This document shows, piece by piece, positions 3,045-26,453 of a DNA stretch of 64,000 nt (positions are counted from its first letter, which is position 1; every line of letters starts with the position of its first letter). Source of the DNA: Eurosta solidaginis (Eukaryota > Arthropoda > Insecta > Diptera > Tephritidae). Under the pieces are notes generated by a model. The model ran no database searches, was not told the origin of the DNA, and was given only the letters and a program-made list of their open reading frames with translations. The stretch lies in contig NC_090321.1 of NCBI RefSeq assembly GCF_040869045.1, forward strand, positions 180,577,596 to 180,641,595. The letters run 5' to 3'. The position numbers and the translations under genes are program-made.

Positions 3045-3843
3045 ACACTGAAAGAAATGGTGCTAGTAAAATCAACTAATCGGTTCTGTTGTTTTTGACT
3101 TAACGGCGATTCGGCCAAATTAATCGAATTATGATTCGACCGAGTTCTTTGTCAAGCGAACAAATTAGTTTAGTCATTTCAACAGAAGAGAAATTGTCGC
3201 TCTTAAGTTAACTTAATTCTGTAAAATTGACAGATTCCTAATCAATTTAACTGATTTTTTTGTTAACTCAACTGATCTCACTGGTCATTTCAACAGCGAT
3301 CAACAGTCAATATATGAGCAAATTTCAAAGAGAATTTTACGCTCACTGCGCTCTCTACTTTGTACTTATGTATGCTGTGTACTATGTGTACTATATGTAT
3401 GCACATATTTACGTATGTATATGGCAGCCGCCGTCGTGTGATGGTAGCGTGCTCCGCCTACCACACCGAAGACCCTGGGTTCACACCCCGGGCAAAGCAA
3501 CATACAAATTTTAGAAATAAGGGGTTTCAATTAGAAGAAAACTTTCCTAAGCGAGGTCACCCCTCGGCACTGTTCAGCAAGCACTCCCGAGTGTATTTCT
3601 GCCATGTAAAGATCTCAGTGAAAACTCATCTGCCTTGCAAATGCCGCAACATAGGTACTTTCGTACAAAGCTGTCGCAACAACTTTTTTTTTTTGTTCAT
3701 TTGACTACTAGAACGGTCAATTACGAATCAACGATTTGTGCGCAGTTGATTCACCACTTGTTGCGTTGGATAAAAATTGACAGAAATTTCGGTTGAATTG
3801 GCCCGTATTTTGGTTGATTTTACCAGTCTTTTTCTTTCAGTGT
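3045..3843. mobile_element. Short TIR element (CACTGAAAG ends), copy 1
   Basis: The left end CACTGAAAGAAATGG...GTAAAATCAAC and the right end, in reverse complement, CACTGAAAGAAAAAG...GTAAAATCAAC form an imperfect inverted repeat of about 30 bp. TA flanks both sides (3044-3045 and 3843-3844). Both ends are closely matched at 56027-57288, so this is a repeat family. CACTG termini hint at the CACTA/Chapaev group, but no transposase remains, so the superfamily is uncertain. A SINE is inserted at 3427-3645. Confidence 0.65.
3427..3645 (+). mobile_element. tRNA-derived SINE inside TIR element copy 1
   Basis: The head is tRNA-like: a box A-like stretch (GATGGTAGCGTGCTCCG) and a box B GGGTTCACACC at 3477-3487. 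The body contains GAGTGTATTTCTGCCATG and AAACTCATCTGCCTTGCA, shared with 39628-39935, 51898-52075 and 59725-60005. The homologous TIR element at 57 kb reads straight through TATGGCAACATAGG without it, which is an empty site. The 3' part (CTCTTCGGAGGTTATCGCGCC) seen in other copies is missing here, so this copy is 3'-truncated. Confidence 0.75.
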
Positions 3844-4418
3844 ATGTATATTTAATATATATGTAGGTAGACAAATCTATGCGCCATAAGGCTGCAGGTA
3901 TCAAAGTAGCTATAAACAAAGACAACAGTAAATTACCGTCCATGCAAAGGAACGCAGTTGGATAAACAAATAGCCAGCGGTATTTATTAGTGTAAATGCC
4001 AAACGGTCATAACAAATTTGTAGGTGCGGAAAGTTGGAAAAGGTTTCAAAAAAATATGGCTGCTATTATTTTGAATTTAAGCGCTTCTTTGATCTTTTGA
4101 CCTTTTTTGTTGTGCCTTTATTGTTTTTGCCTTAGAGCGGAAAGTTTACAATTTATTTTGGGTTAGCTGGTTTTTAATATTCTAGAAAAACTAAGCACTT
4201 CATTAATTTTCCATAGTTCTGCGTACTTTGATCGATCCTTCATCTGGGATATCTAAGCTGCGAGATAAATAAGAAATTATTTGGTTTTGTATATTTACTA
4301 TTAGAGTTTATTACATTGTATTGAATAATGTGTTTCCTTTTAATAGAAGAAAATTGTGTGTCCGTAAACTCGTTCGTTTATTTATTTTTACATTTTTGGC
4401 ATTTCATCATTATTTCTT
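3844..4418. other. no gene seen
   Basis: AT-rich unique-looking sequence with no conserved frame or terminal repeat that I can recognise. Confidence 0.4.
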
Positions 4419-4893
4419 ATACTATGTTCAAACAGAAAAATAAATTGAGGCAATTTCGATTTAAATTGAGTGGTGTTCATACAACAAAATGTGCGTGTTG
4501 GTATAAGGCGAATGGAATGAAATAAAAACATAAAACTTTGAAATGTTTTTGTGTTGCAAGGCGAATTCAGTACCAAAAGCTGAATGCTTCTTCTTGATAA
4601 TTTTCCATACAAAGCCTTGTGCAACAATATGTCAGTTAATCGAAATCAATGAAAATTTTCTTTTGACTTGACATTCTGCACGGCGAATTGGTTGAATTCA
4701 GTTTGCCACAACCTGGTATGGATTCGCCTTGGTAGTAAGACAATGTGTTCAATGTTTTGGTTTCATTTTGAGTTTGCCATCTTCTTTTGACAATCCCTAA
4801 TCCAGTGAAATGAAAAAAATAAAATCAACTGATGAGATGAGCCAACCATATAGTTGAGCCATGCGTAACTGACGTTTAAATCTACTCAATAAA
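4419..4893. repeat. Unclassified interspersed repeat, copy 1
   Basis: It starts ACTATGTTCAAACAG and ends GACGTTTAAATCTACTCAATAAA-like, and is matched at 13609-13984. Homology is interrupted reciprocally: this copy has an extra middle section (about 4560-4735), and the other has a section lacking here. The short frame starting MFKQKNKLRQ is conserved only because the DNA is. No TIR or RNA-polymerase boxes seen. Confidence 0.65.
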
Positions 4894-6262
4894 TTTTTTT
4901 ATTTCGAAAACAATTTTACTGAAAAAATTAGATTTTTTCTAAATGGAAAAGAACTACAAACAACGCAGGGTACTTGGAGAGGAAGTTCTGGATACTTATT
5001 TCTCGAGTTTTGTTTTGAAAAATACGATTACTGTTATTTTTGTTTTTCATATTTTGTTTATTGTTATCATGATTCAATCACAAGAGGTTTGCTTTTTTGA
5101 CAATTGCAGCCATTTTGCTCCCAAATCGAATTGACATTCGTTAACTCTGTTGTTTCTTTGTGATTTTTCGAAAAATATTAGTAGTAGAAATATGAAGCAA
5201 TCAGTTTACAAATACCCGATAAGTACTGAGTTGCATAATTCTTTAGAACAATTTTATAATTTTATGCCCATGATCTATTATTGTGGGTTTTATGAAAAGT
5301 ACGGACACCAAGGAATCGTGCATTTTCGTAAACCTATGAACATATTCATCGTTCAACGTCAAAAACTCGACTAGTAAATCGATTCACGTAAAAATGTCAT
5401 TAGTAAATAACGGAGATGTCATAAAGAAATGTACTCATTGAGCATGTTAACTTATTCATTTCGTATGTTCGCAACATTCGTCTCCATTTAAGAATTTAAG
5501 GAGTCGGTTTATATTTTGAATGTTATGTACTTATATTCTTATTTGATATATTCGGAACTCGTTAGATGGTATCAAAGGAACGTGTTCCGAATATTCAGAA
5601 TTAATGAATACTTAAACGGAAAAGAGCTTTCCGGAATTTCTGAGTAAAAAGTGTAGCAGGACCGCTTAACTCTTAACAATAAGCCATTTTCTTTTATTTT
5701 TTTTTTGTAAGTTCATTGCGTCTGCTGAGTAGAGTATCACCCCATATCGGCTGCCTGTTCCAAATAGTCCTATCTCAAAATATTTAAAAAAAATTTCACA
5801 TTTCAGTATTTGGCACAAACTGCCCTATATTAGAATTAGATTGAAGAACGCCTTATCTCAGATTGCTTTTCATTAAATCCCTCTTATGTCAAAATGCATT
5901 GAACTTATACTCAGATCTGGAGTTTTTGAAACAAATTTTGAGATAGTGTATTTATGAATAAAGTTCTAACGTACGACATTCTTCAAACAAATTCTGAAAG
6001 AATGACCAAACCACCATAACTCTTTATCAATTCACGAAATATTTAGTAGAAAATGAATTATTTCCCCCAAAACCTCTTGGCATTTACAGATTTATTATCA
6101 CTAATAATATACTACTAAAGGTAATTTTCTACTACAATTTTCGCTGAAGGGGATTGAAATATTCACAGATATTTGTTTTTCATATTTTGGTATATACATT
6201 AGATGCCACGCCCCTAAATATTAAAAATACCCCATATGCACTGAAGACTTCTATTTACTCCC
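4894..6262. other. no gene seen
   Basis: AT-rich, short frames only. Sequence such as AAATGAAAAAG and CATTTTG-rich tracts gives no domain match. Confidence 0.4.
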
Positions 6263-6355
6263 TCCAGCGGATCTGCATCCGGCAAAGGATCGTCAACATC
6301 GATAACACTCCCCAAGGCCTTCGGGGAGTGTCGTAATCGCTACAACAACAACAAC
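6263..6355 (+). repeat. 3' tail of a (CAA)n-ending interspersed repeat
   Basis: GGATCTGCATCCGGCAAAGG, then CATCGATAACACTCCCC, a short GGGGAGTG hairpin arm, then TCGCTACAACAACAACAAC. The same tail occurs at 17510-17592. The (CAA)n end suggests a 3'-anchored retroposon. Only the last ~90 bp are present here. Confidence 0.6.
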
Positions 6356-6403
6356 TTCTATTTCCTACAAATTGGAGCAAATTTCATCCAAATCGGCCCC
6401 ACG

Positions 6404-6431
6404 CACAGTGCCGCGAAGGTGGACAAAAATA
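6404..6431 (+). repeat. Left terminal signal: 12-RSS-like
   Basis: Heptamer CACAGTG (6404-6410), spacer CCGCGAAGGTGG (12 nt, 6411-6422), nonamer ACAAAAATA (6423-6431). The V(D)J consensus is heptamer CACAGTG, 12 or 23 nt, and nonamer ACAAAAACC. The heptamer is identical and the nonamer matches at 7 of 9. Confidence 0.85.
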
Positions 6432-7375
6432 CAAAAATCGACTGTCTTGAAACTTAGATGTTTTGATGTCAAGTTACAGCTAAAACTCCAACTAAGAGAA
6501 GTTCATAAGTTGTTTTGTGATAAAAACAACTTTCTGCCTCACACACCCCTCAAAATACACTTATTTTCTACATACTATTTCATTTTGGGGTTTCGCACAT
6601 AAAAGTGGTCGCAGTTAAAAAATTTTTAAAAATACATTTTTATTCCTAGCAAAATCAAATTTTGCACTTTGATGAAGATATATGCGACAAACCAAAAAAT
6701 TTTTGGTACATAAAAAAACACTTATACAAATATTTTTTTTATTAATAAATAAATATATGAATAAACATACCAAAATCCGAAATTTTGGTAAATTTGAAGA
6801 CAAAGAAAACCCAAGTCGGTGACATTTTTTTTTGTTTATGGTAGTTTGGACCTTCTACTAACAGAAATAATCGAAATCTCTTCCGCCTTCTTCCGCCTCG
6901 CGAAAATCTTCAATTTTGAAAAAGTGAATAAATGCCTTTTTTTTGGTACTGCTTTAGCATTAGACGAAACGCGAACAAAAAGAAAAAATAAATATGTGAC
7001 ATATTCATCTTCATCTGCATATTTAGCTTAAGCACAAACAAAAAGAGCTCTGCGAAAATGCACATTAGGGTGGTCCAATTGCTTTTTTTTTTTTTTTTAT
7101 TTATCTCTTTTATAATTTTGTTCACCTAACTAATTACTTTATCTGTGAAAAATTTCATAGTTTTACTATTAGTGGAAGATGGTGCTCAACGCGAGTTTAA
7201 AATTTCATTTATAACTTGTATTTGACATATTTTTTCTATCCATTTAACAAAAAAAATCAGGATTAAAAAATATAAAACAGCAATAAGCACCTTTTATATC
7301 TTAACCGACTTTTCTTAAATTTAAACTTGAAAGTAAAGTATGAGTAACAATATACTGAAAAGGCCAACATTTTTT

Positions 7376-10300
7376 TATACTCAGTTGAGCAGAGCTCACA
7401 GAGTATATTAAGTTTGATTGGATAACGGTTGGTTGTATATATATAAAGGAATCGAGATAGATATAGACTTCCATATATCAAAAAAATCAGGATCGAAAAA
7501 AAATTTGATTGATCCATGTCCGTCCGCCCGTTAACACGATAACTTGAGTAAATTTTGAGGTATCTTGATGAAATTTGGTATGTAGGTTCCTGAGCACTCA
7601 TCTCAGATCGCTATTTAAAATGAACGATATCGGACTATAACCACGCCCACTTTTTCGATATCGAAAATTTCGAAAAACCGAAAAAGTGCGATAATTCATT
7701 ACAAAAGACCGATACAGCGACGAAACTTGGTAGATGAGTTGAACTTATGACGCAGAATAGAAAATTAGTAAAATTTTGGACAATGGGCGTGGCACCGCCC
7801 ACTTTTAAAAGAAGGTAATTTAAAACTTTTGCAAGCTGAAATTTGGCAGTCGTTGAAGATATCATTATGAAATTTGGCAGGAACGTTACTCCTATTACTA
7901 TATGTACGGTTAATAAAAATTAGCAAAATCGGAGAAGGACCACGCCCACTTAAAAAAAAAAAATTTTAACAAAAAATTTAATATCTTTACAGTATATAAG
8001 TAAATTATGTCAACATTCAACACCAGTAATGATATGGTGCAACAAAATACAAAAATAAAAGAAAATTTCAAAATGGGCGTGGCTCCGCCCTTTTTCATTT
8101 AATTTGTCTAGGATACTTTTAACGCCATAAGTCGAACAAAAATTAACCAATCCTTTTGAAATTGGGCACGGGCATAGATTTTATGACGTTAACTGTTTTC
8201 TGTGAAAATGGGCGAAATCGGTTGATGTCACGCCCAGTTTTATACACAGTCGTCCGTCTGTCCTTCCGCATGGCCGTTAACACGATAACTTGAGCAAAAA
8301 TCGACATATCTTTAATGAACTTAGTTCACGTGCTCACTTGAACTCACTTTATCTTGGTATGAAAAATGAACGAAATCCGACTATGACCACGCCCACTTTT
8401 TCGATATCGAAAATTATGAAAAATGAAAAAAATGCCATAATTCTATACCAAATACGAAAAAAGAGATGAAACATGGTAAGGTAATTGGATTGTTTTATTG
8501 ACGCGAAATATAACTTTAGAAAAAACTTTATAAAATGGTTGTGACACCTACCATATTAAGTAGAAGAAGATGAAAAAGTTCTGCAGGGCGAAATAAAAAA
8601 CACTTAAAATCTTGGCAGGTATTACATATATAAAAAAAAAAATAAGCGGTATCCAGCAGATGATGTTCTAGGTCACCCTGGTCCACATTTTGGTCGATAT
8701 CTGGAAAACGCCTTCACATATACAACTACCACCACTCCCTTTTAAAACTTTCATTAATACCTTTAATTTGATACCCATATCGTACAAACTCATTCTAGAG
8801 TCACCCCTGTTCCACCTTTATGGCGATATCTCGAAAAGGCGTCCACCTATAGAACTAAGGCCCACTCCCTTTTAAAAATACGCATTAACTCCTTTCGTTT
8901 GATACCCATATTGCACAAACGAATTCTAGAGTTACCCCTGGCCCACCTTTATGGCGATATCTCGAAACGGCGTCCACCTATGGAACTAAGGATTACTGCC
9001 TTTTAAAATACTCATTAACACCTTTCATTTGATACCCATATTGTACAAACAAATTCTAGGGTCACCCATGGTCCACCTTTATGGCGATATCTCGAAACGG
9101 CGTCCACTTGTAGAACTAAGGCCCACTCCCTTTTAAAATACTCATTAATACCTTTCGTTTGATGCCCATATTGTGCAAACAAATTCTAGGGCCACCCCTG
9201 GTCCACCTTTATGGCGATATCTCGAAACGGCGTCCACCTATGGAACTAAGGATTACTCCCTTTTAAAATGCTCATTAACACCTTTCTTTTGATACCCATA
9301 TTGTACAAACAAATTCTAGGGTCACCCATGGTCCACCTTTATGGCGATATCTCGAAACGGCGTCCACCTATGGAACTAAGGATTACTCCCTTTTAAAATT
9401 CTCATTAACACCTTTCATTTGATAACCACATCGTACAAACGCATTCTATAGTCACCCCTGGTCCACCTCTATGGCGATATCTCGAAAAGGCGACCACCTA
9501 TACAACAACCACCACTCCCTTTTAAAACTTTCATTAATACCTTTAATTTGATACCCATATCGTACAAACACATTCTAGAGTCACCCCTGGTCCACCTTTA
9601 TGGCGATATTTCGAAACGGCGTCCACTTGTAGAACTAAGGCCCACTCCCTTTTAAAATACTCATTAACACCTTTCTTTTGATACCCATATTGTACAAACA
9701 AATTCTAGGGTCACCCATGGTCCACCTTTATGGCGATATCTCGAAACGGCGTCCACCTATGGAACTAAGGATTACTCCCTTTTAAAATTCTCATTAACAC
9801 CTTTCATTTGATAACCACATCGTACAAACGCATTCTATAGTCACCCCTGGTCCACCTCTATGGCGATATCTCGAAAAGGCGACCACCTATACAACAACCA
9901 CCACTCCCTTTTAAAACTTTCATTAATACCTTTAATTTGATACCCATATCGTACAAACACATTCTAGAGTCACCCCTGGTCCACCTTTATGGCGATATTT
10001 CGAAACGGCGTCCACTTGTAGAACTAAGGCCCACTCCCTTTTAAAATACTCATTAACACCTTTCGTTTGATGCCCATATTGTGCAAACAAATTCTAGGGT
10101 CACCCATGGTCCACCTTTATGGTGATATTTCGAAACGGCGGCCACCTATACAACTACCACCACTCCCTTTTAAAACTTTCATTAATACCTTTAATTTGAT
10201 ACCCATATCGTACAAACACATTCTAGAGTCACCCCTGGTCCACCTTTATGGCGATATTTCGAAACGGCGTCCACTTGTAGAACTAAGGCCCACTCCCTTT

Positions 10301-11246
10301 TAAAATACTCATTAACACCTTTCTTTTGATACCCATATTGTACAAACAAATTCTAGGGTCACCCATGGTCCACCTTTATGGCGATATCTCGAAACGGCGT
10401 CCACCTATGGAACTAAGGATTACTCCCTTTTAAAATTCTCATTAACACCTTTCATTTGATAACCACATCGTACAAACGCATTCTATAGTCACCCCTGGTC
10501 CACCTCTATGGCGATATCTCGAAAAGGCGACCACCTATACAACAACCACCACTCCCTTTTAAAACTTTCATTAATACCTTTAATTTGATACCCATATCGT
10601 ACAAACACATTCTAGAGTCACCCCTGGTCCACCTTTATGGCGATATTTCGAAACGGCGTCCACTTGTAGAACTAAGGCCCACTCCCTTTTAAAATACTCA
10701 TTAACACCTTTCGTTTGATGCCCATATCGTACAAACACATTCTAGAGTCACCCCTGGTCCGCCTTTATGGCGATATTTCGAAACGGCATCCACCTATAGA
10801 ACTAAGGCCCACTCCCTTTTAAAATACTCATTAACACCATTCGTTTGATGCCCATATTGTACAAACAAATTCTAGGGTCGCCCCTGGTCCACCTTTGTGG
10901 CGATATCTCGAAACGGCGTCCACCTATGGAACTAAGGATTACTCCCGTTTAAAATACTCATTAACACCTTTCGTTTGATACCCATATCGTACAAACGCAT
11001 TCTAGAGTCAACCCTGATCCACCTTTATGGCTATATCCCTAAATGGCGTCCACCTATAGAACTATGGCCCACTCCCTCATAAAATACTCTTTAATGCCTT
11101 TCATTTGATACACATGTCATACAAGCACATTCCAGGGTTTCCCTCGGTTCATTTTCCTACATGGTTATTTTCCCTTATGCTGTCACCATAGCTCTCAACT
11201 GAGTATGTAATGTTCGGTTACACCCGAACTTAACCTTCCTTACTTG
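7376..11246 (+). mobile_element. Minisatellite-bearing Helentron/DINE-like element, copy A
   Basis: The start is TATACTCAGTTGAGCAGAGC. The end is CTCTCAACTGAGTATG, then hairpin GTTCGG-TTACAC-CCGAAC (11212-11229), then TTAACCTTCCTTACTTG. The inverted ACTCAGTTGAG motif near both ends, a central tandem array (8670-11140), a 3' hairpin, no target duplication and T-rich junctions resemble Helentron-associated DINE-type non-autonomous elements. The class is inference. The non-repeat part contains many short GGGCGTGG and CGATATCGAAAA inverted motifs. It has no coding capacity. It lies inside the RAG1-like transposon, so it is younger than that element. Confidence 0.75.
8670..11140 (+). repeat. ~130-bp tandem array, about 19 units, with higher-order repeats
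   Basis: Each unit contains GTCCACCTTTATGGCGATAT-, TCGAAACGGCGTCCACC, ACTCCCTTTTAAAA and TTTGATACCCATAT. The phrase GGCGATAT recurs about every 130 bp from 8821 to 11028. A three-unit block starting CCTTTCTTTTGATACCC repeats at 9281 and 9670 (389 bp) and again at 10318 (648 bp, five units), showing higher-order amplification. Open frames read across it are artefacts of the repeat. Confidence 0.9.
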
Positions 11247-11391
11247 TTTAATATAAACTTGAACCACCTTAATGCACATATGTGCGTGTGAAAACAAGTG
11301 ACCGCAGCAGGTAAATCGGCACTTGTTTATCTCACTTCAAAATAAAGTGTCGAAAGCCAAAACATAAAACTTTTATAATAAATAAATAAAA

Positions 11392-13495
11392 ATGTCAATT
11401 AAAATCGGAAATAGTAATTTGGTAGATTTATGGTTTGAAACACCCCTTAAAGAAAGATTATCATCAGTCATTTTTGCTTTTGTTTGTGAAAAGTTAACTA
11501 ATGTTGAATTTGATAGAAATAATGTGAGGAAAATTGTTTATAGATTCAGTTATGACATGAACAACAAGTGGAGAGAAGCTGCCTATAAAAAAGAGCGATT
11601 TATTAAATGGAACTCTTCTTGGCTTCAATGGGCAGTCTTTGAAACTGAAGATCCCGATGATTTAATGTATGCCTTGTAGTGTGAAAGTTTGTAATTGAAT
11701 ATAAATTTCAGATACCAAGCACCAGTACGGGAAAAGAGGCAGACCGCAAGTAGAGTTTCAGTAGCTTCAGAAAAGTCAAAATCCCGAAAGATAAGTAAAA
11801 TAATTGAAGAACATAGTAAGGAAGAAATTACTTATGCTGCGCGGAAAGTAAGGAAAGGTGAAAAAGAACCTGATAACACTATAAAGAAGTGTCTTGAGCC
11901 CTTTGAAACGCTGGCCTTATGTTTAGATTTAGATTTATCAGAAGAAAAATATTATAAACTTCGCAAAGTTGTTAATAGTATGCATACGGATTCTTTCCCA
12001 AGCACGTATGAGTTAAGCAAATTCAAACACAATTTAGTACCACATATAGAAGCGACTAAAACTTCAGCAGAAGTGAATTTAAAGGCTTTTCTGCATATTA
12101 CATCAAAACACATCTTAGAAGTTTGTTCAGACAAACACCCAGTGGGCAAACTTATACTTACATGTAAATGGGGAATGGATGGTAGTTCTGGGCACAGTCG
12201 ATATAAGCAAAATTTCTCGGTGGAAGACCTCGCAGATGAATTTATTTTCGTAATTGCTTTTTTACAAATAAAGTTCGTATAAAATCAATTAGTTTCCAAA
12301 GTATATATTGTAAATTTAAAAATTTTTTTTTCACAATTTAAGGCTCATCGATTCCTAATCAGGTAATGAAATATGGGTCAACCGAACTTCTTTCTCTACT
12401 CTCTTATGTAGACTAGTGAAATTTATTTATACGAAAGAAGGAAAAGAGGTAATTCATTCTGATTATAATAAAATGGTTCAGATGATTAATGATTTGGAAT
12501 GCGATATTTTCAAAAATAAGAAGGGAATAGCTGAAATTTCCTACGTCATGCACTGCACTATGATTGACGGTGCAGTAGCTAATGTTTTAACAAACACCAA
12601 TTCTTCGAGCAGATGTTTTATATGTCATGCAAGCCCAACGGAAATGAACAATATTGAACAAAACAAAATACCAAATCCAGATCAATATAAATTTGGGTTA
12701 TCAACCCTCCATTGCTGGACTCGATTCTTTGAATTTTTACTGCACATAGCCTGCCGCCTGCCTTTTAAGAAATGGCAAGTCAGAATAGAAAATAAGGCTA
12801 AATTTATTGAAACTAAAACCCGTATACAAAAAGAATTCAAAGATAAAACAGGTTTGATAATTGATCAAGTCAAGAAAGGGTTTGGCACAACTAATGATGG
12901 AAATACAGCTCGACGTTTTTTTGAAAATATTGACGTTGCCGCAGAAATTACTCGTCTGGATAAGTCTCTAATCAATAGTTTTTTTCTGGTGCTTAGAGTC
13001 CTCTCCTGTGGAAAAGAAATAAAAACCCAAGAGTGTAGTGTTTTGTTGACCGAAACAAGAGAGTTATACCTAAAAAATTATGGTTGGTATAACATGTCAA
13101 GTTCTGTGCATAAAATTTTAGTACATGGATGTGATGTAATTAAATACTTTGATTTACCAATAGGATTTTTATGCTATGTTATGATTTATTTGTCTTAATC
13201 TGTACTTCCACGTTTTTTATCAGGTTCTTTATTAGAAGAAGCCTTAGAATGTTCACACAAAAACATAAGAAAATATCGGCTTAATCATACACGAAAAACT
13301 GGAAGAGTACAAAGCAATACGGATTTAATGACCCGTTTGATATTATCATCCGATCCATTAGTTGCATTTAAAAGAAATATAAAACAGAGAAACAAATATT
13401 CGAAGGATTCTGATCTCAGCTTTAAAAAATATATTGTTGAAAGTGATGAAGCAGACAACGACATGGAATCTTCTGAGGACTCTGAAACTGATTGA
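11392..13495 (+). pseudogene. RAG1/Transib-like transposase, four exons, degenerate
   Basis: Proposed exons are 11392-11666, 11712-12249, 12343-13163 and 13224-13495. Introns 1 (45 bp, phase 2) and 2 (93 bp) are GT-AG; intron 3 (60 bp) ends TTATCAG but begins GA. Motifs in order: WGMDGSSGH (Asp codon 12178-12180, the likely first catalytic Asp, as in RAG1 CDGMGD); CFIC (12614-12625), matching the RAG1 zinc-site CxxC; NDGNTARRFF, like the RAG1 NGNFARK stretch; VHKILVH (HxxxxH, 13109-13126), like RAG1 HKTLAH; and LLEEALECSHKNIRKYR, carrying the candidate catalytic Glu, then an acidic tail. The second catalytic Asp is uncertain (TMIDG is a candidate). Exon 3 needs a frame change near 12360, because the frame with WVNRTSF is shifted from the splice frame. 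Total coding about 635 codons, RAG1-core sized. The start is the first ATG after an AT-rich leader. It is probably non-functional. Confidence 0.65.
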
Positions 13496-13608
13496 TTATA
13501 ATAGTTCTGTTTTTATTTACATAGTCAAGAGCGACTATGCTTTATTTTTTTTACAGAACGGGTAAAATGTAACAAAAAAAAAACCGACTTAATTTTTAAA
13601 ATTAGCGT

Positions 13609-13984
13609 AATACTATGTTCAAACAGAAAAATAAATTGAGGCAACTTCGATTTGAATTGAGTGCTGTTCATACAACTCGATTTAGCTTACACAATGGTAA
13701 TTTGATAGCTGGTTGGCTCATCTCTACAGCAAGAACATACCTTTGTTCAGACTGTCAAAATGTGCGTGTTGGTATTAGGCGAATGAAATGGAATGAAAAC
13801 ATAAAACTTTGGAATTTTTGTGTGTTGTAAGAAAATGTGTTCAATGTTTTGGTTTCATTTTGAGTTTGCCATCTTCTTTTGACAATCCCTACACCAGTGA
13901 AATGAAAAAAATAAAATCAGCTGATGAGATGAGCCCACCATATAGTTCAGCCAAGCGTAACTGACGTTTAAATCTACTCAATAA
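13609..13984. repeat. Unclassified interspersed repeat, copy 2
   Basis: A second copy of the repeat at 4419-4893, sharing ACTATGTTCAAACAG at the left and GACGTTTAAATCTACTCAAT at the right. It interrupts a subterminal repeat unit of the RAG1-like transposon (unit core 13581-13609), so it inserted after that transposon. The frame starting MFKQKNKLRQLR is an unsupported by-product. Confidence 0.65.
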
Positions 13985-14255
13985 ACATACTTTACAAGGT
14001 TGCATTTGCAGTTTGAAACAATTTATTACGCAATTTCTTTTAAATTGGCAATTTATTATTACTATTTGTTATATGATAAATTTCGTAATAAATTACCCAA
14101 ATGGTATAAATTGCCAATTTGGTGTGTCTTTGTACATAGTATAATGTATTAAATTACCCTAATGTAAAGATGCGACAAATTATAACTAAAAATTATATTT
14201 TTCTGAACATTTATAAACAATTATATGCCACATTACAATTTTATATAATAACGTG

Positions 14256-14596
14256 CAAAAACCCGGTTTTTTTTCAATCAGTTCTGGCGAGTACTTCACT
14301 TTTTATAAACATATGTCTACGATGATTATGGCTTATTCGACCTTTTTATCAAATTGTAAAAAAAAATTGTTTTAAATTAATTGGTAACCGGGATTGAATA
14401 ACAGATTTTTTGTCTAAAATTGGCGTGATATAGTCCTTTGAGGTGTGAAGTTTCGGCCCATTCTGACGACTCATTCTACTTATATCAACACATGTCCGCA
14501 ATAACTATTTTCATACAAAAATGCGAGAAAAACTCGGGTTTCTCGAAATGAGTAACCGGTACAGAAAACCCGATTTCATTTTTTAAATTAGCGTGG
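14256..14596 (+). repeat. Subterminal direct repeats of the RAG1-like transposon
   Basis: Diverged units begin with A-rich AAACCCG(A/G)TT and run into TTTTAAATTAGCGTG or AAAATTGGCGTG, then GGTGTGAAGTTTC. Clear anchors: GGTGTGAAG at 14442 and 14595 (153-bp period), and AAAATTAGCG at about 13600 and 14585. An earlier unit starts near 14256. They sit between the transposase 3' end and the right terminal signal. Confidence 0.55.
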
Positions 14597-14629
14597 TGTG
14601 AAGTTTCAGCCAATTCAGACCACTCCTTC

Positions 14630-14668
14630 TATTTTTGTCCATCTTTTGTATGGAGTCGCGGCACTGTG
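14630..14668 (-). repeat. Right terminal signal: 23-RSS-like
   Basis: Read inward on the minus strand: heptamer CACAGTG (14668-14662), 23-nt spacer (14661-14639) whose first six bases CCGCGA and last three TGG match the left spacer, then nonamer ACAAAAATA (14638-14630), identical to the left nonamer. Confidence 0.85.
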
Positions 14669-17261
14669 CCACAGTGCGTTCAAAGAAGGAAATGAAATGT
14701 TTGCGTCTTGCTTTTTTATATAAAGATAAATTTTTTGTCATTTTTACATGTTACTTAAGTAATTTTTAACTTGTATTTGTTTCGTTTTTTTCATTGCTTT
14801 ATTTTGCTGTATATGTTTGTATTTTGACTTATCTCGTACCTTTTCATTAATCAATGCTCGAGCTATATGTATGTACGTATGTATGTATGTATTTAATAAT
14901 TTATAATCTAACACAAAGGCAACATATAATTTTGCCGCAGGTCATGTTTAGACATCAAAACCAATGTGTGGGCGGACAATGTTAAATAGTATAATGGTTG
15001 ATTTATTATGATGTGCACTACAAACATGAATCCTTGACAAAATCATAAATGTGTAATAATGAAAATTATCGAACACTAAAAATGCATTTTGACTGTTTTT
15101 GAAAAAACCGTTCTCTGTAAATAGTTTCTACATTTTGTACGGTACTTTCGTAAACAATGTACAAGTGTTGATTTAGTGATCCAATTATTTCAAAACCAGT
15201 AAAGCTGAACATACTTGCTTTTGGCCGAAAGGCGACGATAAATCAATGTACAAGCAAATGCCTTCACACGTCGATGGGAGGTTAAATACAGTGTTAGGTT
15301 GTGAGCAACGAGATTTATATTAAATCTGTGAATTATTTATTAAACAAAATTAAAAATCATTTAGAAACGCCATTTAACTGGTGCCACATACTTTGCTATT
15401 AGATTTTAATTAAATAGTGGAGTGCGTCGGTCGTTCGTGGAAGAACAAAAGCTTCTGATTCCACTTCAGCATTGTTTTGATAAGAAATTCTGTTTGCAAA
15501 AGTTGCATCAAAAAACCTAAACCAGAAAATAGACCTTAGATATATTACTAACATATTTTCCTTCATATTTGTGTATTGTACTACCCATACTACCGTTAAG
15601 TTCAACTTTCTGCAGGAACAATGAGGTAACAAGATATGTGCGAAGCTGCCATCGTCGATTCAAGGGTTAAGCCGAACTCCATAGCATGCGAATATGTGGC
15701 CTAGTAAATAGTTTCCTGCACCTTTGCTTTGCTCGACATAGGATCCAGGTAGAAAGTCGGTAAGCAATAACTGCGAACCGGTTATTATATTGGATGATTT
15801 TGGGTCTGAAGGTCTCTTCTGTTGAACTTCAACGGATGCTTCCCCATCGAGGCCGCCTCAAAAAGTAATGTTGACCTCTAGCCACAACAAGGAGAGGTGA
15901 TGTGGTAGATGGCTATTTTTCCCGATTTTTTAAACAAACTGCTTACGTCCATGCAGTCAATATGGATTACCCAAATTTTTCTAAAGATGATAAGATAAAA
16001 GAGAGCGAAAAGGGCCGCAGAAAGGGAAAACGGGAGCGTGTGCAAAATGAACGAGCTCCAAGGCGACAGGCGAATCCGAGCATAGAATAAAAATGAAGAA
16101 GGCTGCAAGGAAGAGAGCGTAAAAGAGCCCCCTCACAGTATTGGGCAGCATTACAAAATTGTCAGTGCTGGGGAACCGTATTCGACCCAATATGTAGTCA
16201 AAGCATTAGAAACTTGGCGACGGCAGTTCGCTGACAAAAATGTTGTTGCCAGAACCTTTTCATATTGTGACCGTTATTACGAAGACCAAGATTTTAACAG
16301 AATAAATAGGCAGCTTACACCTGAAGTCGATGGGACCACTTTTAGGAGGCAAAAAGGACCCAGCCCTAGGACTGTGAAACAGGTAGTTAGCACCGATAAG
16401 CCATATACGCGAAGCTAAAGACAGAGGCACTCCAATAGTGTTGAAGCAACTTTCTCGAAAGTTAAGCAGTAGATAAGCGGCGAACAGTAGTTATATACCA
16501 ACAACAGAGAGAACTGATGACGTGGGTGATAAGTCAAATGAAGGTAACATCAGAACTCTCGTATTCTCGTAGAGACAAAAGGGAGGCTATAAGGAAAATT
16601 CGCCTAATCCCGGCTATACCTGATGTTTTGCTAATTTATCGTAACAGTCCATTTTTCATAATTCCTACCAAATGGCGTCGATCGTGACTAGAATGCTGCA
16701 GAACGAACCGCGTAAACAGGTTTCATCATTAGATGCATGCAACAATATCACGACCTTGAGATGGCTTAAGGGTTGCCCTTCAAACGCAAGAACCAAATCA
16801 CACATTTTGAGGTGGTTTATAGCGCACAGATCTACAGAGTATTGGAGCGTGAGTGGTCATCAAAAAAATGCGATATGCTTCCAAACACTCTGCTGTCCGA
16901 GTGGACGGACTCCTCAGACCTAAGTTTAGGTGAGGTATGAGAATATCTAGCAAACTCATATGACAAAACTCTTTGAGAATAAGAATAGAAAAAAACATGC
17001 GCTGGCACGCAATATGCACAATCAATGAAAGGGAATAAGGAACAACTAGGCAATGCATATGTATGTATCAATATACATACGTGTGCTTACATATTAGACT
17101 GGGCCGAAAAAAGCAGCAAAAGTATGCCTCTGTATTTATACATAGCTTAGTTTTGAGGACCTCGACATCTTAAACATATTACTTGAAGCTACCATAAGTT
17201 ACAAAAGTGGACTGAATCGCTAAAATTGCATTCTGTTTCATTTAAAACTCTTCTGTAATTT
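14669..17261. other. no identified gene; short coding-like remnant at ~16190-16419
   Basis: The first kilobase is AT-rich, with a TATG microsatellite at 14864-14893. From about 15640 the base composition rises. A frame at about 16190-16419 reads VVKALETWRRQFADK and DRYYEDQDFNRINRQLTPEV before a stop. This looks like decayed coding sequence, perhaps the first ORF of a retroelement, but I do not recognise the family. Frames at 16672-17058 are overlapping and unsupported. Confidence 0.4.
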
Positions 17262-17592
17262 TAGACTTGCCCAGGGATTAAGGGAGTCTATAAGCGCAAC
17301 CCGATTGACAACCTCCCCTACGCGAGCCGAAGCCTGTCACGAATATAAACGTATCACACAAATGTTTAGCAGGGGAGGCTCTGGCGACCACAAGTTTCTC
17401 ATGGAATTTCATGGTTTGTGATGGGATGGCCTAGAAGGTTCAACGTGGTCATATTTAGTCATTCCCGAGCTGGTCGCGCTTGCACCTTATCGTGCTTGTT
17501 ACCGTCAAGTACGGGATCTACATCCGGCAAAGGACCATCAACTTCGATAATACTTCGAGGAATATCTTTATCGCTACAACAAAAACAACTAA
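17262..17592 (+). repeat. (CAA)n-tailed interspersed repeat, longer copy
   Basis: A run containing CAACCCGATTGACAACCTCC, GGGGAGGCTCTGG, TTCCCGAGCTGGTCGCGCTT and GGATCTACATCCGGCAAAGG, ending TATCGCTACAACAAAAACAAC. The last ~90 bp match 6263-6355, but the hairpin arm is deleted. I recall long versions of this sequence as common in tephritid genomes; its class (LINE 3' region or SINE) is not settled. Confidence 0.6.
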
Positions 17593-17705
17593 AGGCCAAA
17601 GTGGACTTTTTGTCCCAATCTAATCGAATCAAATAACCAAGCTATAATAAAAAATGCATTTCGGCTCTTTCTTTTCTTTGTCTCACCATAATCTTCAAAA
17701 ACAGT

Positions 17706-17916
17706 TGTCACCGACAGTTTGATTGTGAGAGCATTGAGGGCATTCGCTGGTTGACGGTGAAGCAGAACGGTAGTCAGTTCGTGTTACAATCAAGATTCTT
17801 ATTATTTGTATTATAACTTAACCTAAACCTTTTGTTAATTAAATAAACAACTACATGTATTAGTTTTATAAACGTGGTGAGACCATTCATTTTAATTCAT
17901 TTGGACATTCCTGACA
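17706..17916 (+). repeat. 5' LTR
   Basis: 211 bp, TG...CA ends, direct copy of 26431-26641. It contains AATTAAATAAAC, a possible polyadenylation-type AATAAA variant. The upstream CAGT is half of the target duplication. Confidence 0.93.
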
Positions 17917-17931
17917 TCTCAGAATTGGGAT
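17917..17931 (+). promoter_or_regulatory. Primer-binding site, tRNA-Leu type
   Basis: TCTCAGAATTGGGAT directly follows the LTR. It matches 13 of 15 positions of the complement to the 3' acceptor of insect tRNA-Leu as I recall it (TGTCAGAAGTGGGAT), starting a few bases inside the CCA end, as in mdg3-like elements. Confidence 0.6.
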
Positions 17932-18458
17932 GAACATATTTTACATCCATTCCTACATACGAATTGAATTTTCAATCAACGACACAAGCGAGGGGAAAAA
18001 TACCACCTGTAAGCGAATCAACGAATAAATTTAAAAAGAAAAAGAGCAAAAAAGAGATCATTTGCAACAGTTACATACGAAAAGTTACAACGGCGAGTGA
18101 CTTTGCATACGTACACAACAAAAGGTAAACGCAAACGAATCAACAATCGAAGTAGCGAATGTAAGAACACAAGCCGTTAGTTTGTGTGTTTGCAACGACT
18201 TCGATACAAACAAAACGACGAGAACGCAACAACAAAAATAAGACAAAAGCAAGAGTAGATTTTTTTTGTTTTGTGTTTTTGCAACGGCTTAAGCGCAGCG
18301 TATAAGGGGCAGTGGTGTTTATAGCTGCAATATTGAAGAACGTTCTGGAATTCTATGGAGGAGAATTATTATTGTGAGCCATACGGGGTGAACAACAGCG
18401 AGACGTTCAAGAAAACCCAACGTGATTACAAGTGAATTTCTGCAGAACTTAAAAAAAA

Positions 18459-21400
18459 CAAGTAAGGAAGGCTAAGTTCGGGTGTAACCGAACATTACAT
18501 ACTCAGTTGAGAGCTATGGAGACAAAATAAGGAAAATCACCATGTAGGAAAATGAACCTAGGGTAACCCTGGAATGTGGTTGTATGACATGTGTATCAAA
18601 TGGAAGGTATTAAAGAGTATTTTAAAAGAGAGTAAGCCATAGTTCTATGGATGGACGCCATTTAGGGATATCGCCATAAAGGTGGACCAGGGCTGACTCC
18701 AGAATTTGTTTGTACGATATGGGTACCAAATGAAAGGTGTTACTGAGCATTTTAAGAGGGAGTGGGCCTTAGGTCTATCGGTGGACGCCTTTTCGAGATA
18801 TCGCCATTAAGGTGGGCCAGGGGTGACTCTAGAATGTGTTTGTACGATATGGGTATCAAATGAAAGGTGGTAATGAGTATTTTAAAAGGGAATGGGCTTT
18901 AGTTCTATAGGTGAACGCCTTTTCGAGAAATCGCCATAAAGGTGGACCAGGTGTGACTCTAGAATATGTTTGTACGATATGGGTATCAAATGAAAGCAGT
19001 TAATGAGTATTTTGAAAAGGAGTGATCCTTAGTTCCATAGGTGGACGCCGTTTCGAGATATCGCCATAAAGGTGGACCAGGGGTGTCTCTAGAATGTGTT
19101 TGTACGATATGGGAATCAAATGAAAGGTGTTACTGAGCATTTTAAGAGGGAGTGGGCATTAGGTCTATAGGTGGACGCCTTTTCGAGATATCACCATTAG
19201 GGTGGGCCAGGGGTGACTCTAGAATGTTTGTACGATATGGGTATCAAACGAAAAGTGTTACTGAGCATTTTAAGAGGGAGTGGGCATTAGGTCTATAGGT
19301 GGACGCCTTTTCGAAATGTCGCCATTAGGGTGGGCCAGGGGTGACTCTAGAATGTGTTTGTATGATATGGGTATCAAATGAAAGATGGTAATGAGTATTT
19401 TAAAAGGGATTAATCCTTAGTTCTATAGGTGGACGCCTTTTCGAGATATCGCCATAAAGGTGGACCAAGGGTGACTCTAGAATGTTTGTACGATATGGGT
19501 ATCAAACGAAAGGTGTTACTGAGCATTTTAAGAGGGAGTGGGCACAAGGTCTATAGGTGGACGCCTTTTCGAGATATCGCCATTAGTGTGGGCCAGGGGT
19601 GGCTCTAGAATGTTTGTACGATATGGGTATCAAACGAAAGGTGTTGCTGAGCATTTTAAGAGGGAGTGGGCATTAGGTCTATAGGTGGACGCCTTTTCGA
19701 GATATCGCCATTAGGGTGGGCCAGGGGTGACTCTAGAATGTTTGTACGATATGGGTATCAAACGAAAGGTGTTACTGAGCATTTTAAGAGGGAGTGGGCA
19801 TTAGGTCTATAGGTGGACGCCTTTTCGAGATATCGTCATTAGGGTGGGCCAAGGGTGACTCTAGAATGTGTTTGTGCGATATGGGTATCAAACGAATGGT
19901 GTTACTGAGCATTTTAAGAGGGAATGGGCATTAGGTCTATAGGTGGACGCCTTTTCGAGATATCGCCATTAGGGTGGGCCAGGGGTGACTCTAGAATGTT
20001 TGTACGATATGGGTATCAAACGAAAGGTGCTGCTGAGCATTTTAAGAGGGAGTGGGCATTAGGTCTATAGGTGGACGCCTTTTCGAGATATCGCCATTAG
20101 GGTGGGCCAGGGGTGACTCTAGAATGTTTGTACGATATGGGTATCAAACGAAAGGTGTTACCGAGAATTTTAAGAGGGAGTGGGCATTAGGTCTATAGGT
20201 GGACGCCTTTTCGAGATATCTCCATGAGGGTGGGCCAGGGGTGACTCTAGAATGTTTGTACGATATGGGTATCAAACGAAAGGTGTTACTGAGCATTTTA
20301 AGAGGGAGTGGACATTAGGTCTATAGGTGGACGCCTTTTCGAGATATCGCCATTAGGGTGGGCCAGGGGTGACTCTAGAATGTTTGTACGATATGGGTAT
20401 CAAACGAAAGGTGTTGCTGAGCATTTTAAGAGGGAGTGGGCATTAGGTCTATAGGTGGACGCCTTTTCGAGATATCGCCATTAGGGTGGGCCAGGGGTGA
20501 CTCTAGAATGTTTGTACGATATGGGTATCAAACGAAAGGTGTTACTGAGCATTTTAAGAGGGAGTGGGCATTAGGTCTATAGGTGGACGCCTTTTCGAGA
20601 TATCGTCATTAGGGTGGGCCAGGGGTGACTCTAGAATGTGTTTGTGCGATATGGGTATCAAACGAATGGTGTTACTGAGCATTTTAAGAGGGAATGGGCA
20701 TTAGGTCTATAGGTGGACGCCTTTTCGAGATATCGCCATTAGGGTGGGCCAGGGGTGACTCTAGAATGTTTGTACGATATGGGTATCAAACGAAAGGTGT
20801 TGCTGAGCATTTTAAGAGGGAGTGGACATTAGGTCTATAGGTGGACGCCTTTTCGAGATATCGCCATTAGGGTGGGCCAGGGGTGACTCTAGAATGTTTG
20901 TACGATATGGGTATCAAACGAAAGGTGTTACTGAGAATTTTAAGAGGGAGTGGGCATTAGGTCTATAGGTGGACGCCTTTTCGAGATATCGTCATTAGGG
21001 TGGGCCAGGGGTGACTCTAGAATGTGTTTGTACGATATGGATATCAAATTAAAGGTATTAATGAGGGTTTTAGAAGCAAGTGGCCCTTAGATGTATATGT
21101 GAAGGCGTTCTCGCGATATCGACCAAAATGTGGACCAGGTGATCCAGAAAATCATCTGTCGGGTACTGCTAATTTATTTATATATGCAATACCACTAACA
21201 GTATTCCTGCCAAGATTCCAAGGGCTGTTGATTTCGCCTTGTAGAACTTTTTCATTTTCTTCTACTTAATATGATAGGTGTCACACCCATTTTAAAAAGT
21301 TTTTTCCAAAGTTATTTTTTGCGTCAATAAACCAATCCAGTTACCATGCTTCATCCCTTTTTTCGTATTTGGTATAGAATTATGGCATTTTTTTCATTTT

Positions 21401-22457
21401 TCGTAATTTTCGATATCGATAAAGTGGGCGTGGTTATGGTCGGATTTCGGCCATTTTTTATACCAAGATAAAGTGAGTTCATATAAGTACGTGGGCTAAG
21501 TTTAGTAAAGATATATCGGTTTTTGCTCAAGTTATTGTGTTAACGGCCGAGCGGAAGGACAGACGGTGGACTGTGTATAAAAACTGGGCGTGGCTTCCAC
21601 CGATTTTGCCCATTTTCACAGAGAACAGTTATAGTCATAGAATCTATGCCCCTACCAAATTTGAGAAGGATTCGTAAATTTTTGTTCGACTTATGGCATT
21701 AAAAGTATTCTAGACAAACTAAATGAAAATGGGCGGAGCCACGCCCATTTTGAAATTTTCTTTTATTTTTGTATTTTGTTGCATCATATTATTACTGGAG
21801 TTGAATTTTGACTTAATTTACTTATATTCAGTAAAGATATTAAATTTTTTGTTAAAATTTGAATTAAAAAAATTTTTTTTTAAAAAGTGGGCGTGTTCTT
21901 CATCCAATTTTGCTAATTTTTATTCAGCACATATATAGTAATAGTAGTAACGTTCCTGCCAAATTTCATCATGATATCTTCAACGACTGCCAAATTACAG
22001 CTTGCAAAACTTTTAAATTACCTTCTTGTAAAAGTGGGCGGTGCCACTCCCATTGTCCAAAATCTTACTAATTTTCTATTCTGCGTCATAAATTAAACCC
22101 ATCTACGAAGTTTCAATGGCAATGAATTATCGCATTTTTTCGGTTTTTCGAAATTTTCGATATCGAAAAAGTGGGCGTGGTTATAGTCCGATATCGTTCA
22201 TTTTAAATAGCGATCTGAGATGAGTGCCCAGGAATCTACATACCAAATTTAATCAAGATACCTCAAAATTTACTCAAGTTATCGTGTTAACGGACAGACG
22301 GACCGACGGACGGACATGGCTCAATCAAATTTTTTTTCGATACTGATGATTTTGATATATGGAAGTCTATATCTATCTCGATTCCTTTATACCTGTACAA
22401 CCAACCGTTATCCAATCACAGTTAATATACTCTGTGAGCTCTGCTCAACTGAGTATA
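18459..22457 (-). mobile_element. Minisatellite-bearing Helentron/DINE-like element, copy B
   Basis: Reverse orientation relative to copy A. It begins CAAGTAAGGAAGGCTAAG with hairpin GTTCGG-GTGTAA-CCGAAC, then ATACTCAGTTGAGAGC. It ends GAGCTCTGCTCAACTGAGTATA. Flanks join the LTR element's own leader (ACTTAAAAAAAA on the left, AAAAGCAGGCC on the right), so it inserted into that retrotransposon. It contains a 20-unit array and the same 1.3-kb non-repeat arm as copies A, C, D2, E and F. Confidence 0.8.
18560..21150 (-). repeat. ~129-bp tandem array, about 20 units, homogenised
   Basis: Units contain GTGACTCTAGAATG, TACGATATGGGTATCAAA, GGTCTATAGGTGGACGCC and TTTTCGAGATATCGCCATTA, the reverse complement of copy A's unit. 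Units from about 19200 to 21000 are nearly identical. The variant TATCGTCATT recurs at 19831, 20601 (770 bp, six units) and 20987 (386 bp, three units). Confidence 0.9.
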
Positions 22458-22573
22458 AAAAAAAGCAGGCCAATTTTTTCAGTTTTTGGATGACAATTGC
22501 ATGCAGAAAAGTTAATTGCACTATAATATGGGAAAAATGATCAAACACTTTAAAGGTTGATCAAATCAACAAA

Positions 22574-23224
22574 TTGCTACAAAACCAAGGTGCGACGGTA
22601 ATGGGCAATAAAGCAACAAAGATTATTAAATTTACAGAAATGTACGGCGTTGATAAAGTTGATGCTGAAGAGTGGGAGGTAAGCAGCGAAGTTACATCTA
22701 TGCAGAAGCAAATGGAAGAAATGCGTGGCATTATTGCGGGGCTAGCTAAGTCTGTAAACGATTTGGTGACAGTACAGACAAAGCAAACGTTAACACCGTC
22801 GAATGCCACAACGATTCCAGCAGAAGTTAGTTGCCACGATAACCATTCAACTCCCACAACAGAGGTTCACGCTGAAATACCAAGGAGTTCATCGGAACAC
22901 GATATTAATAGTACACCAATAGCAGATCGTCCATTGTTAGTCCCAATGACGCAACGTGAATGGGAAAGAAGCGCAGTACACGACATCATCGCAATATTAC
23001 CTGATTTTTATCCATTAAAAGGGAGTTTAACATCGAAACAGTTTGTTGATAAAGTTATACAGCTACGAGAAGCATACGGATGGTCTGAGCAAGAAATTTT
23101 GTTAGCCGCTCAATCAAAGTTGGGTGGCCAAAGAATGGCTCGATACGCAAACCGTACTTCAACGATGGTCAGCTTTTGTATCAGCATTTCAACAGAATTT
23201 CCTTTCACAATGTGTACGGCATAA
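22574..23224 (+). pseudogene. Gag of the mdg3-like element (broken)
   Basis: An open frame of about 216 codons. The first ATG is at 22601 (MGNKATKIIKFTEMYGVD); codons before it come from a non-ATG opening. A coiled-coil-like stretch (SSEVTSMQKQMEEMRG) precedes a Ser/Thr-rich linker. A capsid-like segment follows (IAILPDFYPLKGSLTSKQF, then LREAYGWSEQEILLAAQSKL), typical of insect Ty3/gypsy Gag. The frame is lost near 23150-23220, and the downstream Gag sequence is readable in other frames until the zinc knuckles, so at least one frameshift and a stop separate them. The upstream part may have been separated by copy B. Confidence 0.75.
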
Positions 23225-23386
23225 GTTCACGCGGAATTATCACGAAGAAAGAGGCGAACAAATGAAACTTTTAGTCAATACTATTACGCTATGTTAAATA
23301 TTGGTAGGCGAGGTAAGGTTGATGAAGAATGAATCAATACATATATTATTGGGGGGTAAAATGACAGTAATTTAACACGCACCCTT

Positions 23387-23851
23387 ATGGCAATGAAATT
23401 ACCATCATGTAACGATTTATTGCGATCTCTTGATAGTTTAGCAAATGTATATTGTGCGTTCAAAGTTACAGATAGTGGTCATAGAAATGTAAACGAGGTA
23501 ACACGAAATGTTACTAGAGAGAAGAAATCTACAAAATGTTTTAATTGCAACGAGTATGGACACATTGCAGCAAAATGTCCAAAGCCTCCAAGAAATGAAA
23601 GATGCGCAAAATGTAACAAGGTGGGACACGATTCTAAGTCTTGCCGCTATGAAAAATCAACGGTTGCGAAGGTAGTTAGTGAAAATTTATATCCACCGTT
23701 AATGTCAAGTGTCTTGCTAAATGGTGACCAGTATTCGGCGTTTATCGATACTGGCAGCGACACATCAATCATATCCGAATCCAAAGTACCAACCAGTATG
23801 GAAAAGAAAGGATTGTTTTGCAGAAGACTTAAGAAAGCTTGGACGTCGTAA
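23387..23851 (+). pseudogene. Nucleocapsid zinc knuckles and aspartic protease start
   Basis: Two CCHC knuckles: C51-x2-C54-x4-H59-x4-C64 and C73-x2-C76-x4-H81-x4-C86. They bind retroelement RNA. The protease active-site motif follows (FIDTGSDTSII, DTGS at residues 121-124). The frame shifts shortly after SESKVP, so the protease is truncated and not joined in frame to RT. The order knuckle then protease shows this is the Gag-Pol junction region. Confidence 0.85.
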
Positions 23852-23962
23852 AACAACAACTATGGAAATCATTGTCAGCACCGAGAAACCAATTACAGGT
23901 AGGCAGTACCAGGTACCTTTTATCCAAAGACCTGTACTTTCCACGATAATTGACACACATAA

Positions 23963-25057
23963 TTGAAACACAATATAATTCGTCAGAGTTCATCACCTTA
24001 CGAAGCTCAAGTTGTAATAGTGAAGAAGACAAATGGGGAAGATAGAATGTGCGTTGACTTTAGGGCACTTAATGCGGTCACCATAAAAAAACAATTTCCA
24101 ATGCCAATAGTAGAAGAGCAGTTGTCAAAGCTTGGGGGTAATACGTTTTTCACCACCCTTGATATGACTGCAGCATATTATCAAATTCCATTACATGAGG
24201 AGAGCAAGAAGTTCACAGCGTTTTTGACGCCTGAGGGATTATACGAGTATAATGTAATGCCATTTGGACTGCGAAATGCACCAATGGTCTTTCAGGAGAT
24301 GATTATTCAACTTGTACGTGGTTTGAGAAACCGAGACAAAATTATAAGCTACGTTGATGAGGTTATAATTGCAACAAAGAATGTTAGTGAAGGTATTGAT
24401 GTCCTAGCCGAGTTTTTGGAGGCAGTACGAAATGCTGGACTCACGCTAAAACCAAGTAAATGCACTTTTATGTCAAGAAATGTTAAATTCTTAGGCCATG
24501 TTGTAAGCCAAGATGGTATTAAGCCTGGTGAGGAGAAAACAAAATCAATTAAAGTTTTTCCTCAACCCACTAATGTAGGAGAAGTCCGTCGATTCCTTGG
24601 CTTAACAGGTTTTTTCAGGAAGCTTATACCAGATTATGGTAGTACCGCTATGCCGCTAACAACGTTACTAAAGAAGGCACAAACATTCGTGTGGACAGAC
24701 GAACATGCCATAGCTTTTGAAAAATTAAAACATGTACTTTGCACTCAGCCGGTGTTAGTTTTGTTTGACGTAGCAAAGAGCCACGAAGTACACACCGACG
24801 CTAGTTCCATAGGGCTATCTGGAGTGTTGGTGCAGCTAGAAGGCGAGGATTGGAAGCCGGTACACTATTACGGCAGACGATGTAATGCAGCTGAGTCTAC
24901 GTATCCATCACATGAATTAGAAGTATTGGCGATCGTAGAGACGCTTGAACGATTACGAGTTTATTTAGTCGGTACACCATTTGTTGTACGAACGTACTGC
25001 AATGCAATTGCAACAACTAAGTCCACTACAGCATTGAAGCCGCGCATTGCCAGATGA
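23963..25057 (+). pseudogene. Reverse transcriptase and RNase H (inactivated)
   Basis: A 364-codon frame. RT motifs: RMCVDFRALNAVT, TTLDMTAAYYQIP (Asp67), FGLRNAP (101-107), YVDE at 130-133 (24350-24361) in place of the catalytic YxDD, and KFLGHVVS. The RNase H domain starts near residue 245: HTDASSIGLSGV (Asp279), YPSHELEVLAIVE, then RTYCNA, where Tyr345 replaces the usual catalytic Asp. The frame ends at an in-frame TGA at 25055-25057 in a position where the family has Trp. The same frame continues past it as LKLQEFDFTF. Two active-site changes plus the stop mean no activity. Confidence 0.88.
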
Positions 25058-25946: not shown

Positions 25947-26063
25947 CAAAATACACGCCTAATGAACTTGTGTTTTATTTCAATCCTAGAGATGTAACAT
26001 ATAACCGAATGATACAAGCTATAAACGATGATGATAAAGGTAATCCAGATATCGAGGTGAAAC

Positions 26064-26453
26064 GTGATGAAGCAGCAAACAATATCATGGCAGAGAGAAA
26101 AGTGGAAAGGGCGTTATGACAAAAGACACCAAACTCCAAAGAAATATGATGTTGGCGACTTAGTTGTCATTGATCATGTTCCAAAGGCAACAGGTCTCTC
26201 CCATAAGCTGGATCCCGCATTTAAAGGACCATATATTGTTACCAAAGTACTTAACTACGACAGATATATTATCGAAGATCTACCAGACTCAACACATACA
26301 CAAAGACGTTATTGCAACATATGTAGTGTGGATCACATAAAACCGTGGTGTGCATTGATTCCTGAACTTGATGGTATCGACGACGACGATGATTCGTCCA
26401 TGCAGGACGAAATGTCAGGAAAGGCCGAGCTGTCACCGACAGTTTGCTTGTGA
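26064..26453 (+). pseudogene. C-terminal domain of the integrase polyprotein
   Basis: Reads WKGRYDKRHQTPKKYDVGDL, then HKLDPAFKGPYIVTKVLNYD and RYIIEDL: the GPY/F-type module at the C-terminus of Ty3/gypsy integrases. An acidic tail (DGIDDDDDSSMQDE) precedes the stop. The frame overlaps the first bases of the 3' LTR. A weak purine tract AGGAAAGG (26417-26424) lies just before the LTR; the polypurine tract is not clear. Confidence 0.7.

Follow-up and report, generated by a model that had tools for sequence, protein, structure and literature searches.

Transib transposons are described as encoding a transposase only (PMC4411706) and as mostly symmetric-ended (PMC8289069). They form two subgroups, one with asymmetric ends and the other with both kinds, and a GRP motif resembling the RAG1 nonamer-binding domain has already been described in them (PMC9435367). 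In jawed vertebrates, the asymmetry of the recombination signal sequences (RSSs) is recognized only by RAG1 complexed with RAG2, yet some Transib ends show asymmetry (PMC8355894). Transibs of the 12/23 type that lack RAG2 include Drosophila melanogaster Transib5 and Anopheles gambiae Transib2, N1, N2 and N3 (Kapitonov and Jurka 2005, cited in PMC8355894). V(D)J recombination depends centrally on the 12/23 rule, and the question is whether the rule predates RAG2. Here we describe an element at positions 6404-14668 of a 64-kb stretch of contig NC_090321.1 (the window, in which all positions are counted). It is likely a broken cut-and-paste transposon of the Transib superfamily, whose ends share a 13-bp repeat and a displaced A-rich block, with predicted binding sites at 12 and 23 nucleotides.

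Like Transib5, Transib2 and N1-N3, which are described as insect Transibs with a heptamer and a nonamer-like motif at 12 and 23 (±1) nucleotides, the element carries these motifs at 12 and 23 nucleotides. By comparison with these descriptions, it represents a family distinct from them, and its host is probably a tephritid fly. HzTransib of Helicoverpa zea has a transposase whose core is homologous to that of the element, and likewise has inverted repeats and ends similar to the RSS heptamer (PMC8289069 for the heptamer); its 5-bp duplications have a putative counterpart here in flanks that agree at 4/5. Its ends, however, are reported to be symmetric and to show hardly any or no resemblance to the nonamer (PMC8289069). 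Amphioxus ProtoRAG and AanRAGL likewise have bipartite ends and a RAG1-like enzyme, with asymmetric spacers of 27/31 (PMC8355894) and 4/13 (PMC9435367), respectively; they carry RAG2-like genes, whereas none was found in the element studied here. Compared with the vertebrate RSS, the element has the exact heptamer, a nonamer matching at 7/9 positions and spacers of 12 and 23, in a transposon without RAG2.

Termini and boundaries of the element

Read directly from position 6404, the left end is CACAGTG CCGCGAAGGTGG ACAAAAATA, with a 12-nucleotide spacer and ACAAAAATA at 6423-6431. The right end, read on the minus strand from 14668, is CACAGTG CCGCGACTCCATACAAAAGATGG ACAAAAATA, with a 23-nucleotide spacer and ACAAAAATA at 14638-14630. 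The heptamer and the identical nonamer-like sequence in inverted orientation at both ends are thus as claimed in a preliminary description of this DNA. Both ends open with the same perfect 13-bp terminal inverted repeat, which itself begins with CACAGTG, and terminal inverted repeats resembling the RSS heptamer are a feature of the Transib superfamily. The features of the two ends are as follows.

6399..6403, no strand: CCACG outside the left end, putative copy of a 5-bp target-site duplication, 4/5 identical to 14669-14673
6404..6416, plus strand: left terminal inverted repeat CACAGTGCCGCGA, with heptamer CACAGTG at 6404-6410
6417..6431, plus strand: shared block AGGTGGACAAAAATA, whose last 9 nucleotides (6423-6431) are nonamer-like at spacer 12
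6431..6439, plus strand: ACAAAAATC, a further nonamer-like motif at spacer 20 and the closer fit to the consensus at the left end (8/9)
14630..14644, minus strand: shared block AGATGGACAAAAATA, with the nonamer-like motif 14630-14638 at spacer 23
14641..14649, minus strand: ACAAAAGAT, which gives the right end an alternative register at spacer 12 (6/9)
14656..14668, minus strand: right terminal inverted repeat CACAGTGCCGCGA, with the heptamer at 14662-14668
14669..14673, no strand: right flank CCACA, putative target-site duplication

We surveyed perfect 13-bp inverted pairs that start with CAC within 8 kb of the gene in both directions, with left starts at 3393-11392 and right ends at 13500-21499. 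Among the 138 pairs found, only 6404/14668 has 5-bp flanks alike at four or more of five positions, and the boundaries are therefore well supported. The remaining 137 pairs connect a nested repeat (left, 8345-11126) with its second copy (right, 18578-21475). The presence of nested repeats in this region could be taken to mean that the ends derive from an unrelated transposon in which the Transib gene is an enclosed fragment. This is highly improbable, given that the survey revealed no further pair of this kind with agreeing flanks around the gene and that the literature, PMC4411706 included, presents ends resembling the RSS heptamer and 5-bp duplications as typical Transib features.

With up to three mismatches, CACAGTGCCGCGA has 13 matches in the window against 4.37 expected, a number reached in none of 100 shuffles. 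Besides the two exact ends, these comprise 11 variants with three mismatches each, which were rejected as ends (best nonamer no better than 6/9 at spacers 8-30). An extra CACAGTG is present on the plus strand at 14670-14676, 1 bp beyond the right end and facing away from the element; it may simply belong to the target site.

The transposase gene and its decay

Four pieces on the plus strand match, in order, a profile of 658 positions built from 28 relatives (i-E, independent E-value).

11407..11646, plus strand: transposase piece 1, profile positions 3-84, i-E 5.6e-8
11732..11761, plus strand: KRGRPQVEFQ, whose GRP motif is similar to the one in the nonamer-binding domain of RAG1; its frame differs from those of its neighbours
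11755..12276, plus strand: transposase piece 2, profile 110-286, i-E 1.9e-49, catalytic Asp codon 12178-12180 (KWGMDG)
12356..12358, plus strand: in-frame TAA between pieces 2 and 3
12362..13171, plus strand: transposase piece 3, profile 292-563, i-E 3.4e-120, catalytic Asp codon 12566-12568 (TMIDG)
13223..13477, plus strand: transposase piece 4, profile 561-643, i-E 5e-24, catalytic Glu codon 13247-13249 (EEALE)

Two stretches of the gene, searched singly, match the HzTransib structure 6pqn (E = 1.7e-54 and 5.8e-13), and all three DDE catalytic residues are retained in the alignment (residue numbers as in PMC6941560). The transposase is thus homologous to the HzTransib/RAG1 core, as expected of the Transib superfamily, and the profile and HzTransib matches bear out the earlier proposal that RSS-like ends enclose a RAG1-like transposase encoded on the plus strand. 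For structural comparison we modelled a relative, P0001, in place of the broken protein of the window. A Foldseek search with this model placed HzTransib at the top (E = 1.0e-37) and RAG1 next; the predicted fold of the catalytic core is like that of vertebrate RAG1, with 18% identity to mouse RAG1 in the structural alignment. In the HzTransib structure, the alignment of the chain begins at profile position 154, leaving the GRP region uncovered. Profile search found no second transposase copy in the window, the four pieces being those of one gene; three further profile matches (i-E 0.21-0.76) were taken as chance. Upstream of the GRP segment (piece 1, 11407-11646), the N terminus in this family also comprises a helical domain, some 80-90 residues long, which is predicted with good confidence in P0001, where the HzTransib matches begin only at model residue 159.

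This Transib copy is dead: an in-frame TAA stands at 12356, the frame changes at the GRP segment, and a repeat of about 3.9 kb is nested in the element. The frame change relative to the next piece is likely a frameshift or another splice or mis-splice; at the third expected junction no GT donor was seen by eye. The copy cannot make a whole protein and would move only with the aid of another copy. Two repeats lie within the element.

7376..11249, no strand: nested repeat of about 3.9 kb with tandem units of about 130 bp, between the left end and the gene, edges approximate
13824..13985, no strand: 162-bp stretch in the 3′ part of the element, a 95% repeat of 4732-4893

The nested repeat has its second copy at 18456-22483 on the minus strand, and the alignment to that copy begins at 7354. 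Without the nested repeat the element measures about 4.4 kb. The 162-bp stretch is probably another repeat within the element.

Absence of RAG2 and search for other copies

In agreement with the preliminary description, no sign of RAG2 was seen in the open reading frames (ORFs) or in the stop-to-stop frames checked by Pfam. Beyond the transposase pieces and 7263-7601 on the minus strand, the element contains no ORF of at least 80 amino acids with a start codon. Outside the nested repeat and the transposase, 33 stop-to-stop frames of at least 35 amino acids remain; a Pfam search with the 10 longest of them returned neither RAG2 nor kelch. The RAG2-like gene in the same element that characterizes RAGL/ProtoRAG was thus not found, although a heavily decayed RAG2 remnant could escape such searches.

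Relatives were also sought in collections of viral and prokaryote DNA, where absence says nothing about flies. Among viral contigs, the search by protein gave 2 pattern stretches, the search by end pattern none and the search by alignment A1 106, with no relatives from any of them. Prokaryote contigs gave none by end pattern and 57 pattern stretches by alignment A1, again with no relatives. Our literature searches found no description of a tephritid Transib among the papers listed, some of whose titles concern other elements or mosquitoes, and for Eurosta and Transib together gave only work on another subject.

Spacing of the nonamer-like motifs

The placement of a nonamer-like motif at 12 nucleotides on the left and 23 on the right is that of the 12/23 subtype, and other registers exist. 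The two ends have in common a 15-bp A-rich block (14/15 identical), which adjoins the 13-bp repeat at the left end and is separated from it by 11 bp at the right end. The difference between 12 and 23, about one helical turn, is due to these 11 bp. The AGRTGGACAAAAATA block, 14/15 in the 12-versus-23 register, is the best 15-mer match between the ends; an equally good shared 15-mer was found in 1 of 4000 Markov-simulated pairs and in 11 of 4000 random window pairs. Exact matches to AGRTGGACAAAAATA occur in the window only at the two ends, and with up to three mismatches there are 12 matches, no real excess over the 9.11 expected (20 of 100 shuffles reach 12).

We simulated 200,000 end pairs with a nonamer threshold of 7/9 or better, using either simulated or real window stretches. 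Exact 12/23 placement of two such nonamers has a frequency of 4.5e-5 in simulated sequences and 3e-5 with window stretches. When the spacer may take any value from 8 to 30 at each of the two ends, the frequencies are 1.0e-2 and 0.6e-2, respectively. The spacing could in principle be irrelevant to pairing and have arisen by chance, from A-rich ends and from mutations in a copy that has decayed. The copy is indeed decayed, the window has a G+C content of 35%, and about 1% of the simulated pairs of random ends have 7/9 nonamer-like matches at some spacer on both sides. We nevertheless consider this explanation improbable in view of the rarity of the exact placement (3e-5 to 4.5e-5), the extended block shared between the ends and the precedents reported in Drosophila and Anopheles (PMC8355894).

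A second alternative is that the two ends of this Transib are in essence symmetric. Each would consist of the 13-bp repeat, ACAAAA at 12 nucleotides and another A-rich motif, at 20 nucleotides on the left and 23 on the right, and 12/23 would reflect a choice among motifs. CACAGTG-12-ACAAAA does occur at both ends, and the nonamer that best fits the V(D)J consensus lies at spacer 23 on the right but at spacer 20 on the left (ACAAAAATC, 8/9, versus 7/9 for ACAAAAATA at spacer 12); Transibs with symmetric spacers of 20-22 bp have been described (PMC8355894). The 14/15 identity of the AGRTGGACAAAAATA block as the top 15-mer match between the ends, as well as the rarity of exact 12/23 in simulation, speak against symmetry, which we regard as possible but unlikely. 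These alternatives partly overlap with the 12/23 reading, since the symmetric-end and chance explanations keep the Transib identity and contest only the meaning of the spacing.

Several observations weigh against a 12/23 Transib with a nonamer-binding transposase. The flank duplication is 4/5 rather than 5/5, and the spacing and the exact ends were read from a single insertion. Rival A-rich motifs are present at spacer 20 on the left (8/9) and spacer 12 on the right (6/9). The GRP motif is out of frame in the window copy, and its alignment to RAG1, made with the relatives, is weak (13.3 bits, i-E 0.19). None of the four window pieces has a RAG1 match in Pfam, which is too insensitive for such pieces (its three sub-cut-off matches are unrelated and all to one piece), and the relatives P0001 and P0035 have no RAG1 match in Pfam either.

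Taken at the level of sequence, 12/23 is still favoured over the alternative registers by the 14/15 block that both ends share at positions 11 bp apart, and any of the A-rich motifs may be the one bound. The 12/23 asymmetry originally put forward therefore stands as an exact placement that is rare by simulation, but as one of several A-rich registers in a single copy. Likewise, the near-consensus nonamer holds at 7/9 for both ends, but a better match exists at the left.

Proposed mode of action and relation to the 12/23 rule

If the element is a Transib with 12/23 ends, the transposase core of an intact member would bind the heptamer, and its N-terminal GRP domain, resembling a nonamer-binding domain, would bind the A-rich block. 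One short and one long end, differing in spacing by one helical turn, would be held together. By analogy with HzTransib, cutting would take place at the heptamer with a hairpin formed on the flank, as reported in PMC6941560, and insertion would produce a 5-bp duplication. We infer the pairing mechanism from HzTransib and RAG. That a fly Transib family with a GRP-bearing transposase and no RAG2, reading ends one helical turn apart, enforces the 12/23 pairing rule alone is a further proposal that we hold to be doubtful.

The preliminary description had suggested that, if its copies agree, 12/23 spacing exists in an insect transposon without RAG2; such Transibs are already in print (PMC8355894). 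What the element likely adds is a further family, in which the RSS heptamer is exact and the block common to both ends is extended. By itself the element leaves the known picture unchanged, and an extra family with the exact heptamer and an extended two-block match would offer a clean substrate for the question of 12/23 recognition without RAG2.

Other repeats and retroelements in the window

The repeat nested in the element belongs to a family of about 4 kb with tandem units of about 130 bp, found whole or in part at seven places in the 64-kb window.

7376-11249
18456-22483 (minus strand)
28689-29239
31827-32944
37940-39582
40202-40672
45957-47994

Gypsy-like retroelement frames are present at 22541-26450, with the reverse transcriptase (RT) at 23963-25054. 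For this RT, 95 proteins pass E = 1e-60, and the best-scoring named match is from the beetle Popillia japonica (42% identity over 99%). Among named matches, identity is highest in Eurosta solidaginis, at 71% across 43% of the query, followed by Bactrocera oleae (60% over 53%); Bactrocera neohumeralis and Hermetia illucens are at 51% over 66%. The tentative assignment of the DNA to a tephritid is based on these identities, and no gene of the host was recognized. Another reverse-transcriptase-like frame, at 30599-31546 on the minus strand, appears Penelope-like by eye.

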